From Rhodospirillales bacterium (GTDB lineage Bacteria > Pseudomonadota > Alphaproteobacteria > ATCC43930 > CGMCC-115725): a DNA stretch of 39,248 bases. Each line of letters begins with the position of its first letter. Position 1 is the first letter of the stretch. The notes beneath the pieces are model-generated. The model did not search any database. It saw only the letters and a list, made by a program, of their open reading frames with translations, and was not told where the DNA came from. This document shows positions 19,889-24,498 of this stretch, one piece after another. The position numbers and the translations under genes were made by a program. The stretch is taken from contig JADGGZ010000011.1 of the NCBI GenBank assembly GCA_019689675.1, positions 1-39,248 on the forward strand, in the 5' to 3' direction.

Positions 19889-21337
19889 ATGCTGATCGAG
19901 GGAAAGACCGGGCCCTGGGAGATCGTCATCGGGCTCGAGGTGCATGCCCAGGTGATCTCGAAGGCGAAGCTCTTCTCGGGCGCCGCGACCGACTTCGGCG
20001 CCGAGCCGAACACGCAGGTGTCGCCCGTCGACGCCGCCTTCCCCGGCATGCTGCCGGTGATCAACCGCTTCTGCGTCGAGCAGGCGGTGCGCACCGGGCT
20101 CGGGCTCGAGGCGCAGATCAACCTCGTCTCGGTGTTCGACCGGAAGAACTATTTCTACGCCGACCTTCCGGCCGGCTATCAGATCTCGCAGTACCAGCGG
20201 CCGATCGTCGGCAAGGGAAAGATCACGCTCGATCTGCCCGGCGGCGAGACGCGCGAGGTCGGCATCACGCGCCTCCACCTCGAGCAGGACGCGGGCAAGA
20301 GCCTCCACGACCAGCACCCGACCAAGACCTACGTCGACCTCAACCGGGCCGGCGTCGCGCTCATGGAGATCGTCTCCGAGCCCGACATGCGCAGCCCCGA
20401 GGAGGCGGGCGCGTACCTCAAGAAGCTGCGCTCGATCCTGCGCTATCTCGGCACCTGCGACGGCAACATGGAGGAAGGCTCCATGCGCTGCGACTGCAAC
20501 GTCTCGGTGCGCCGTCCGGGCGAGCCCTACGGCACGCGCTGCGAGATCAAGAACGTGAACTCGGTGCGCTTCGTCATGCAGGCGATCGAGTACGAGGCGC
20601 GGCGCCAGATCGAGGTGCTGGAGGACGGCGGCACGATCCGGCAGGAGACGCGGCTCTTCGATTCCGGGCGCGGCGTCACAAGGCCGATGCGCACGAAAGA
20701 GCACGCGCACGACTATCGCTACTTCCCCGATCCCGACCTTCTGCCGCTCGTGCTCGACCCCGCCTGGGTCGAGGAGATCCGCAACAGCCTTCCCGAGCTG
20801 CCCGACGCCAAGAAGGCGCGCTTCATGCGCGAGTACAAGCTCTCCGCCTACGATGCGGGCGTGCTCGCGGCGGAGCGCGAGAGCGCCGACTACTACGAGC
20901 GCGTCGCGAAGGGCCGCGATCCCAAGCAGGCGGCGAACTTCGTCATGGGCGACCTCTTCGGCGCGCTCAACAGGCTCGGCGTCGGCATCGACCGCTCGCC
21001 GGTCTCAGCGGAGAACCTCGGGCGCCTCATCGATCTCGTCGCCGACGGCACGATCTCGGGACGGCTCGCCAAGGACGTGTTCGCGGCGATGGTCGAGACC
21101 GGGCAGGACCCGGCGACGATCGTCGAGGAGCGGGGCCTTCGCCAGGTGACCGACACGGCAGCGATCGAGCAGGCGATCGACGCGGTGATGGCGAGGGAGG
21201 CGGCGAAGGTCGCCGAGTATCGCGGCGGCAAGGAGAAGCTCTTCGGCTACTTCGTCGGCCAGGTGATGAAGGCGACCCAAGGCAAGGCGAACCCGGCGGT
21301 GGTCAACGATCTCCTGCGTAAGAAGCTCGCCGGCTGA
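19889..21337 (+). CDS. gatB: Asp/Glu-tRNA amidotransferase subunit B
   Basis: A 482-residue subunit that binds the mischarged tRNA, phosphorylates the glutamyl or aspartyl group and receives ammonia from GatA. GLEVHAQV at the N-terminus, [41 protein letters not shown], and the zinc-site-like C-x-C region ([10 protein letters not shown]) are present, with the helical YqeY-like tail ([20 protein letters not shown]). The ATG at 19889 follows GCAGGGTGAG. It closes gatCAB; the message probably ends in the AT-rich region before 21400, though no clear terminator stem was seen. Confidence 0.97.
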
Positions 21338-21358
21338 GCCCCGCGCGGAGGTCTCTTA

Positions 21359-21384
21359 TCTTTTGGTTAATTTTTCTTTTGGTT
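21359..21384 (+). promoter_or_regulatory. Tandem 10-mer TCTTTTGGTT in an AT-rich upstream region
   Basis: TCTTTTGGTT occurs at 21359-21368 and again, identical, at 21375-21384, a 16-base period. The tract is strikingly AT-rich for this genome and lies about 55-80 bases before the start of the 593-residue gene, so it could be a pair of regulator sites or an UP-like element. No clean -35/-10 pair was found around it. Confidence 0.45.
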
Positions 21385-21420
21385 GAACAACCCGATCGGA
21401 TAAGCTGACCCGCCTAAACA

Positions 21421-21429
21421 GGGGGGGGG
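21421..21429 (+). repeat. Run of nine G in the leader of the 593-residue gene
   Basis: Nine consecutive G residues are followed by AGAGAGG and the ATG at 21437. The run touches the ribosome site, so a change in its length would shift spacing to any promoter or ribosome-site elements; it does not lie in coding sequence. Confidence 0.5.
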
Positions 21430-21436
21430 AGAGAGG

Positions 21437-23218
21437 ATGGGTCAGCTCGGCTCGGTCTTCGGCCGCCTATTCGGTACTGCGATCTGCGTGCTCCTGTCGG
21501 CCGCTCTCGGCGACACCGCATCCGCACAAGGCGTGATCATCCCGTACAGGTCTGGGGAAGTCATCAGTCCCGAGGAGAACCGGCGGCTCGCGCGCTGGCA
21601 GCGAGAGCACTGGGAAGAGATCGTCAAAGAAATCGACGAGAATATCGAAGAATACAACAGGAAATGGAGGGAGCTTTACAAGGAAAAGGAACCAGAGCGG
21701 AAGGCGTACGAGGCTCGCCTCGAGCAGTATTTCGACGCGCACCGGATTCCCGGCTTCGGCATGTACCTCCATGCGAACATCGGAGAGGACGGACTTTACG
21801 AAAGCGCCAGGGTCCTGTGGGTGGACAAGTTCAACAATCCCCACTACGAAGCCGAGTTCGACGCCAACGGGAACGTCGTTTCCGAGGTCCACATAACGCC
21901 CTACGGCAGGGTGATGCAGACCATTCAATCGCATCGCCCTCCGGACGCACAACGCAGCCCGGACATAGAGACGTCGTACGACATCAACCGCAACGTCTAC
22001 GTCAGCCGTGTCACCTGGGCCGACAAAGAGGGGCGGACGCGATCGCGTCTGGCGTTCAACGAGGAGGGCGTCGCGTACTGGGGCGTCAATTACGGGCCCG
22101 ACGGGCGCCGAACGGGCGGCTTCTACGACGAGAGGCTGCTGCCGAAGACGCGCGAGGAGCAACGCCTCGAGACGGTGCCGATCCTGCGGATCGCGACGCA
22201 GCCCTGCGAGCAATGCCGTGCCATTACCGAACGGCGGAACGAGCTCGCCCGCGAGCTCAACTGGATCGCCCTCGACCTCAACGACACCGCTGAGCGCCAC
22301 TGGAACGAGGGCAAGGGCCATGCGGCCCGCCCCGCCGAGTATCGCCCGGACGCGAAAAGGGACGAGCCGCCGCACCAGCCTGACGGGGCGGTAGGGCAGC
22401 CTCCGCTCCGCATGAGGCACGAACACCTCCTGCGGCTCTGGCGCGCCTTCAAGAAGGAGTTCGACGCCGCCGACGCCGAGATGAGGGAATGCGAACGGGT
22501 CTGCCGCCCGAGCATCGAAGCCTCGCCCGCCATCGCACCCAATTTCACGGTCGGTGCCTTCGGCGGGTTCGCGCGGACGCCCTATGACGGCCGCGTCACC
22601 TCGACCGCGCTCGCGGCGGACGAGTCGGGCGGCCTCGGCGACACGATGGGTTTCGCCGGCTTCGACGCGCGGCTCTATCTGCGCGCGATCGGTCAGCTCG
22701 GCCTCGCCGACCAGGTCGCGCTCTACACACCGAACCTCTTCCTGCAGTTCCAATATCTGCACTACTTCAACAACGAGCGCCGGAACCTCTTCGCGACCCT
22801 CCACAATGCGATCACGCGCGACACGGGACTCAGCGTCGAGGAGAAGAACGCGCTCCGCTTCCTGCTCGGCGCCACCTTCGCGCTCCGCCCCGACCTCGCG
22901 TTCTCGCTGATGGCCGGCGCCCAGATGATGCGCTCCGAGATCACCGGCATCTCGCGCGAGACCCTCGGCGGCGGCGCCGAGGATCAGGTCTTCCGCCGGA
23001 ACCGGACGATGTGGTCGCCCTATGTCGGGGTCGAGCTCGCCTACGCGCTCGCGCTCGGCGGCGACGTCAACGCGCAAATCTTCCTCGCAGCGGGCGCCGC
23101 CTGGATGGGCGACACCAGAGTCTCCGGCAACTCGAGCAATTTCGGCTTCGACTACGATTTCAAGGTCGAAGGCGGGATCCGGCCGGAGCTCCTCTTCGGC
23201 GTCCGGCTCGCGTGGTGA
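21437..23218 (+). CDS. Large exported protein with C-terminal barrel-like domain, unknown family
   Basis: A 593-residue protein I do not recognise. A signal peptide (residues 1-30, cleavage at ASA-Q) comes first. Residues about 44-103 are a highly charged Glu/Arg/Lys/Trp helix, likely coiled coil. Residues 115-235 are beta-rich, with repeats of the type D/N-G-N or E-G-x in hairpins (FDANGNVVSEVHI, FNEEGVAYWGVNY). Two cysteine pairs follow, Cys257-Cys260 (CEQC) and Cys352-Cys356, bracketing a helical segment. From about 375 the sequence looks like outer-membrane strands (VGAFGGFARTPYDG, FAGFDARLYLRAI, VELAYALALGG) and ends in VRLAW, an aromatic terminal residue as in Omp proteins. It has a strong ribosome site (GAGAGG) and no operon partners. 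A surface protein is likely; function is open. Confidence 0.7.
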   Translation: MGQLGSVFGRLFGTAICVLLSAALGDTASAQGVIIPYRSGEVISPEENRRLARWQREHWEEIVKEIDENIEEYNRKWRELYKEKEPERKAYEARLEQYFDAHRIPGFGMYLHANIGEDGLYESARVLWVDKFNNPHYEAEFDANGNVVSEVHITPYGRVMQTIQSHRPPDAQRSPDIETSYDINRNVYVSRVTWADKEGRTRSRLAFNEEGVAYWGVNYGPDGRRTGGFYDERLLPKTREEQRLETVPILRIATQPCEQCRAITERRNELARELNWIALDLNDTAERHWNEGKGHAARPAEYRPDAKRDEPPHQPDGAVGQPPLRMRHEHLLRLWRAFKKEFDAADAEMRECERVCRPSIEASPAIAPNFTVGAFGGFARTPYDGRVTSTALAADESGGLGDTMGFAGFDARLYLRAIGQLGLADQVALYTPNLFLQFQYLHYFNNERRNLFATLHNAITRDTGLSVEEKNALRFLLGATFALRPDLAFSLMAGAQMMRSEITGISRETLGGGAEDQVFRRNRTMWSPYVGVELAYALALGGDVNAQIFLAAGAAWMGDTRVSGNSSNFGFDYDFKVEGGIRPELLFGVRLAW

Positions 23219-23483: not shown

Positions 23484-23657
23484 GTGCAATCTTCGAGGGC
23501 GCGCTACGAGGACGATCGCCGGCTCGGCACGCTCGCCGAGGAACCGAAAGTCGAGCGATGGAGCCGGAGCGCGCGTTTCTTCTTCATCATCGGCGCAGCC
23601 ACGCTGTGCTGGCTCGTTCCGGCGCTCGCCGTCTATCTCCTGATCGCCGCCTTCTGA
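23484..23657 (+). CDS. Small single-pass membrane protein
   Basis: A 57-residue protein with a charged N-terminal half (RARYEDDRRLGTLAEEPKVERWSR) and one transmembrane helix (FFFIIGAATLCWLVPALAVYLLIAAF) at the end. The GTG at 23484 is chosen for the perfect AAGGAGGGGG before it; a longer in-frame form would swallow that ribosome site. No family recognised. It stands alone upstream of the TauE/SafE permease gene, with a GC-rich hairpin (23685-23702) in between. Confidence 0.65.
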   Translation: MQSSRARYEDDRRLGTLAEEPKVERWSRSARFFFIIGAATLCWLVPALAVYLLIAAF

Positions 23658-23742: not shown

Positions 23743-24498
23743 ATGTGGGACGAGATCGCTCTTTTCGCCGCGATCGGCTTCGGCGCCCAACTCGTCGACG
23801 GCGCGCTCGGCATGGCTTACGGGGTCACCGCGACCTCGGTGCTGCTGAGCTTCGGCGTGGCGCCCGCGACCGCGAGCGCCAGCGTGCACGCCGCCGAGAT
23901 CTTCACGACCGCCGCCTCGGGCCTCTCGCACTGGCGGATCGGCAACGTCGCCAAGCCGCTGCTCTGGCGCCTCGCGCTTCCCGGGATGGCGGGGGGCGCG
24001 CTCGGCGCCTACGTCGCGACGAGCGTGCCGGCGGCGCTGCTGCGCCCGGCCGTCAGCCTCTATCTCCTCGCGATGGGAATCGTCATTCTCGCCCGGGCGC
24101 TCCGCGCCCGCGTGCCGGGCGAGCCGCCGCTCCGACGCGTCCCCTTCCTGGGGCTCGTCGGCGGCTTTCTCGACGGCGCCGGAGGCGGCGGCTGGGGGCC
24201 GCTCGTCACCTCCTCGCTCGTGGGCAGCGGCACGCATCCGCGCTTCGCGATCGGCTCCGTCAGCGTCGCCGAGTTCTTCGTCACGGCGGCGATCTCCGGC
24301 ACCTTCCTCGCGACGATCGGGCTCGAGCTCTGGCCGATCATCGCGGGGCTGCTTCTCGGCGGCGTCATCGCGGCGCCGCTCGCCGCCTGGGTAGCGCGCC
24401 ACGTCCCGGCGCGGACGCTGATGCTGCTCGTCGCCGGCCTCGTCATCCTTCTCAGCCTGCGCGGGCTCGCGGCCGCTCTCGCCCCCCTCCTCGGATGA
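23743..24498 (+). CDS. TauE/SafE family permease, short form
   Basis: A 251-residue membrane protein with about eight hydrophobic helices. Family marks are GFGAQLVDGALGMAYGVTATS near the N-terminus and GFLDGAGGGGWGPLVTS at the start of the second half, with SVHAAEIFTT. It belongs to a different branch from the permease at 1588 (shorter, no basic central loop). The exported anion is unknown. It converges with the FAD monooxygenase gene, 19 bases apart, with no partner gene on its own strand. Confidence 0.85.
   Translation: MWDEIALFAAIGFGAQLVDGALGMAYGVTATSVLLSFGVAPATASASVHAAEIFTTAASGLSHWRIGNVAKPLLWRLALPGMAGGALGAYVATSVPAALLRPAVSLYLLAMGIVILARALRARVPGEPPLRRVPFLGLVGGFLDGAGGGGWGPLVTSSLVGSGTHPRFAIGSVSVAEFFVTAAISGTFLATIGLELWPIIAGLLLGGVIAAPLAAWVARHVPARTLMLLVAGLVILLSLRGLAAALAPLLG

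Follow-up and report, generated by a model that had tools for sequence, protein, structure and literature searches.

What kind of protein is encoded by a solitary reading frame of 593 codons that resembles no known family, and in which compartment of the cell would it work? The reading frame lies in a window of 39,248 nucleotides (the whole stretch of DNA that was analysed), with gatB, ending at 21337, upstream and a TauE/SafE exporter gene (23743-24498) downstream. A search of named genomes with GatB, in which the best matches showed 76-80% identity, placed the lineage in the Alphaproteobacteria, near Rhodospirillales-type genera. We suggest, with a probability of about 0.55, that the product of the solitary gene, here called P0001, is an outer-membrane barrel whose N-terminal part stays in the periplasm. 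The features on which the discussion turns are the following.

21338-21436, + strand: AT-rich upstream region with a direct repeat, candidate control region (lowest-GC 50 bases, repeat)
21437-23218, + strand: gene of P0001, a 593-aa orphan and apparently exported protein (ORF translation, codon-position GC)
21437-21526, + strand: predicted signal peptide, residues 1-30, with a cleavage site inferred between ASA and Q (read from sequence)
21563-21748, + strand: charged amphipathic helix, coiled-coil-like, residues 43-104 (composition, AlphaFold)
21803-22108, + strand: likely pair of diverged beta-meander repeats, residues ~123-158 and ~189-224 (self-alignment, AlphaFold)
22181-22522, + strand: predicted helical hairpin, residues 249-362, with C257/C260 and C352/C356 (AlphaFold, cysteine positions)
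22523-23215, + strand: putative 8-strand outer-membrane barrel with a C-terminal assembly signal, residues 363-593 (strand pattern, Pfam, hhalign)

The gene and its distribution

The ORF at 21437-23218 is a real gene of 593 codons. It starts with a signal-peptide-like segment, and its codon-position GC (0.65/0.45/0.86) is like that of the true neighbouring genes. The idea of a spurious ORF in GC-rich DNA would agree with the lack of relatives and with the presence of a long antisense ORF (627 aa, with a mirrored codon-position GC, which is a non-gene pattern). However, the real-gene codon-position GC, the signal peptide, the architecture and the gene's own AT-rich upstream region all speak against this idea, and we regard it as extremely improbable. 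The translation was exactly as the initial annotation had described it, and the signal-peptide-like start, charged helix, strands and aromatic last residue (W593) listed there are all present. Between the orphan gene and TauE there is a GTG-start ORF of 57 residues (23484-23657, + strand) with an AAGGAGG ribosome-binding-like site ahead of it; it has a single hydrophobic C-terminal helix and is possibly a small membrane protein.

P0001 is an orphan, encoded by a single and apparently lineage-restricted gene. There was no significant family match in Pfam, NCBIfam or PHROGs, no relative in the PDB and no match in plasmids, and word searches of 84,980 genomes and of viral contigs found no close relative. 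When whole genomes were scored by HMMER or BLAST (~1,325 scans of overlapping sets), P0001 was found solely in its own genome; the 42 other genomes of the same order contained no relative, and no match came from 60 mixed relatives, from 384 genomes of the same class or from 397 genomes of the same phylum, in which each half of the protein was searched separately. The claim that the protein matches no known family was upheld by all the searches. The genome searches score only candidates from a loose first look and could overlook a relative that has diverged strongly. Other genes follow gatB in 20 genomes of the same family, and no diverged orthologue was seen at this position. Because the searched genomes include no other species of the genus, the gene could be common within it.

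Several weak genome matches were judged to have arisen by chance, namely an RND transporter, a porin fragment, a Crp-like regulator and an Arg/Pro-rich wrong-frame stretch across an MFS gene, and four minus-strand loci were rejected on score alone. The weak matches of P0001 to Mfp-3, KMP-11 and semaphorin were also ascribed to chance.

Upstream region and origin of the gene

The initial annotation held that the gene has an AT-rich control region of its own. The 50 bases with the highest AT content of the whole window (21354-21403, GC 0.32) do lie upstream of it, and this region is a candidate for a control role. Within it, an exact 10-base direct repeat, TCTTTTGGTT, occurs at 21359 and 21375 (span 21359-21384, 16-base spacing) and nowhere else in the window, and an exact 10-mer repeat was present in 9 of 5000 shuffles. 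The repeat is a possible regulator site. No sigma-70 consensus match was found upstream of the gene, and an Rfam search returned no match.

The GC3 of the first 180 codons (21437-21976) was 0.77, with a 60-codon minimum of 0.70, compared to 0.90 in the remaining codons (Fisher p = 6.6e-5). Among 353 windows from 11 neighbouring genes the GC3 minimum was 0.817, and the lowest 60-codon windows of the orphan gene fall below all of these. The low GC3 at the start of the gene, together with the AT-rich upstream region, suggests that the gene was recently acquired, is young or is a mosaic, a reading to which there is the caveat that the highly charged helix also shifts the composition.

The N-terminal part and the helical hairpin

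Residues 1-30 form the most hydrophobic segment of P0001, and beyond this signal peptide no transmembrane-helix-like segment was found in the protein. In residues 43-104, 50% are D/E/K/R, and AlphaFold, given the single sequence, places a helix at 45-101 (block pLDDT 56-82). The same prediction has strands at 108-153, mostly with a pLDDT of 63-82. Apart from these segments and the two helices described below, its confidence was low, also for the second copy of the repeat. The local self-alignment of residues ~123-158 with ~189-224 scored 43, compared to 22.5 +/- 4.2 for shuffles (0 of 500 reached 43), and the repeated turns seen in the initial annotation fall in these two segments. When the entire protein was compared with itself, the best match without gaps scored 35-37, and the maximum among 100 shuffles was 37. 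A beta-meander duplication is likely but not certain. Pfam scans detected no peptidoglycan-binding domain in P0001.

Two helices, at 249-294 and 324-361, were predicted by AlphaFold with a block pLDDT of up to 84. Two CxxC pairs had been reported here; both pairs are present, C257/C260 on the first helix and C352/C356 on the second, but the latter is CX3C. The positions add up to nearly the same sum (257+356=613, 260+352=612), which agrees with an antiparallel hairpin. Because such a hairpin would set C257 opposite C356 and C260 opposite C352, we propose two cross-disulfides, C257-C356 and C260-C352, which would be placed in register.

The C-terminal domain

By manual reading, residues 363-593 contain eight strands (~369-380, 403-418, 430-442, 470-483, 487-501, 524-540, 544-557 and 579-593), which are alternating and rich in glycine and aromatic residues. 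The connections between them alternate in length, with ~20-27 residues in the long ones and 3-12 in the short ones, which is the pattern expected if the loops on the outside are long and the turns in the periplasm short. The simple automated count that guided this reading gave ten strand-like segments, a number only marginally above shuffles (p ~0.05, with 0.003 for OmpA of the same genome and 0.49 for GatB as controls). The exact residue spacing of the C-terminal signal of outer-membrane barrels is general knowledge, and the C-terminus of P0001, ELLFGVRLAW, has W, L, V, F and L at positions 1, 3, 5, 7 and 9 from the end. BAM is reported to read a signal that outer-membrane barrels carry in their last strand (PMC10945584).

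A scan of the domain against 24,736 Pfam models yielded only two weak matches, both below their cut-offs: DUF481 (PF04338; 13.6 bits, E = 0.07, cut-off 21.1 bits) and OmpW (PF03922; 12 bits, E = 0.2, cut-off 24 bits, profile positions 92-149 only). We take both to be outer-membrane barrel families. OMP_b-brl (PF13505, cut-off 28.7 bits) was absent from the Pfam scans of P0001 and from the family matches of its own genome. With hhalign, run against our own profiles built from class members, the domain scored 22.3 against OmpW (shuffles 13.5 +/- 2.3, maximum 18.4; reversed sequence 14.6) and 21.8 against OMP_b-brl (shuffles 12.3 +/- 1.9, maximum 18.8; reversed sequence 14.4). These scores are 4-5 SD above the shuffles. 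The similarity is a local one, extending over 23-61 columns, and does not reach any curated cut-off. The score against DUF481 was near background (14.6; shuffles 12.0 +/- 1.7), and the N-terminal domain, the hairpin domain and a GatB control profile stayed at background level.

AlphaFold, again from the single sequence, gave low-confidence helices and not a barrel, with a pLDDT of 48 for the whole protein and 42 for the C-terminal domain. We treated this result as no information because the confidence was very low without an alignment, and the model speaks neither for nor against a barrel. The barrel-like end that had been claimed for the protein is favoured by the sequence patterns and by the weak profile similarity to 8-strand barrels, and gains no confirmation from the predicted structure. 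Three outer-membrane barrel proteins of the same genome were also noted, one OmpA-like, one with a larger barrel and one FadL-like.

Topology and possible role

We suggest that P0001 would be exported by Sec and that the BAM machinery would fold its C-terminal 230 residues into a small, OmpW/OmpA-like barrel of eight strands. Because an 8-strand barrel at the C-terminus leaves the N-terminus in the periplasm, the N-terminal 330 residues, with the charged helix, the two beta-meander repeats and the long helical hairpin, would be periplasmic, and the surface protein proposed by the initial annotation is less likely. Locked by its two proposed disulfides, the stapled hairpin may act as a stiff spacer that keeps the other two modules, charged helix and beta repeats, off the membrane, and these in turn may bind to the cell wall or to a partner. 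A tether or scaffold role is weakly indicated, and the tether role taken alone is doubtful.

Autotransporters have an N-terminal passenger, then a helix and then a C-terminal barrel, an order that would also be found in P0001, whose N-terminal part is large and probably bears repeats. It is conceivable that the barrel exports this part through or beside itself in a similar manner, leaving the helix and the repeats outside. However, the Pfam scans of P0001 gave no match to an autotransporter (type V) barrel profile, about 8-10 strands were counted compared to 12 in an autotransporter, and the two disulfide pairs with the long stapled hairpin would impede passage through the barrel; such a display is quite improbable. 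A soluble periplasmic or secreted protein, the C-terminal half of which is not a barrel, would be consistent with the AlphaFold model and with the marginal strand count, but would leave aside the C-terminal assembly signal, the similarity to OmpW and OMP_b-brl and the alternating strands rich in glycine and aromatic residues, and we consider it unlikely.

The function could also reside in the barrel itself, in which case P0001 would be a small OmpW-like barrel or channel and could dispense with its N-terminal extension. The profile similarity is limited to the barrel, as this would imply, yet the scores lie under the OmpW and OMP_b-brl cut-offs, and the N-terminal part, which accounts for over half of the mature protein, has an ordered modular anatomy; this explanation appears very improbable.

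If the barrel and the disulfides of the periplasmic arrangement are true, P0001 would present a new way of building an outer-membrane-anchored periplasmic stalk, and its gene, young or acquired, would be a clean example of entry into the outer-membrane proteome. A speculative and rather unlikely suggestion is that P0001 is the first protein known from a family of periplasmic spacers that are anchored by a barrel and have a disulfide-stapled helical hairpin in place of a coiled coil or of POTRA-like domains. It would have been put together recently, from an N-terminal module that was acquired and a small outer-membrane barrel. For the present, P0001 is one orphan without a known phenotype, and its function is inferred only.

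Comparison with known systems

P0001 is similar to the OmpW (PF03922) and OMP_b-brl (PF13505) families in its eight predicted alternating strands, a PYVG-type strand motif and the aromatic assembly signal at the C-terminus, but these families are without its 330-residue N-terminal part. The likeness to DUF481 is confined to the weak match of the C-terminal domain. The predicted hairpin would resemble those of CHCH and alpha-hairpinin proteins, in which two antiparallel helices also carry cysteine pairs placed for two cross-disulfides; however, its pairs are CX2C and CX3C in place of twin CX3C or CX9C, its helices are much longer, and there was no sequence match of P0001 to either group.

In SlpA and OmpM, an N-terminal stalk and a C-terminal barrel can join the outer membrane to the cell wall (PMC9388160, PMC10628300). 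P0001 would have the same overall plan of an N-terminal helical stalk and a C-terminal barrel, but its putative barrel is far smaller than the 30 strands of SlpA. It is not a member of this group because it has no SLH domain, none being matched when the full-length protein and its N-terminal pieces were scanned against Pfam. By analogy only, P0001 may work like these connectors, with a stalk that is apparently stapled by disulfides in place of their long trimeric coiled coil.
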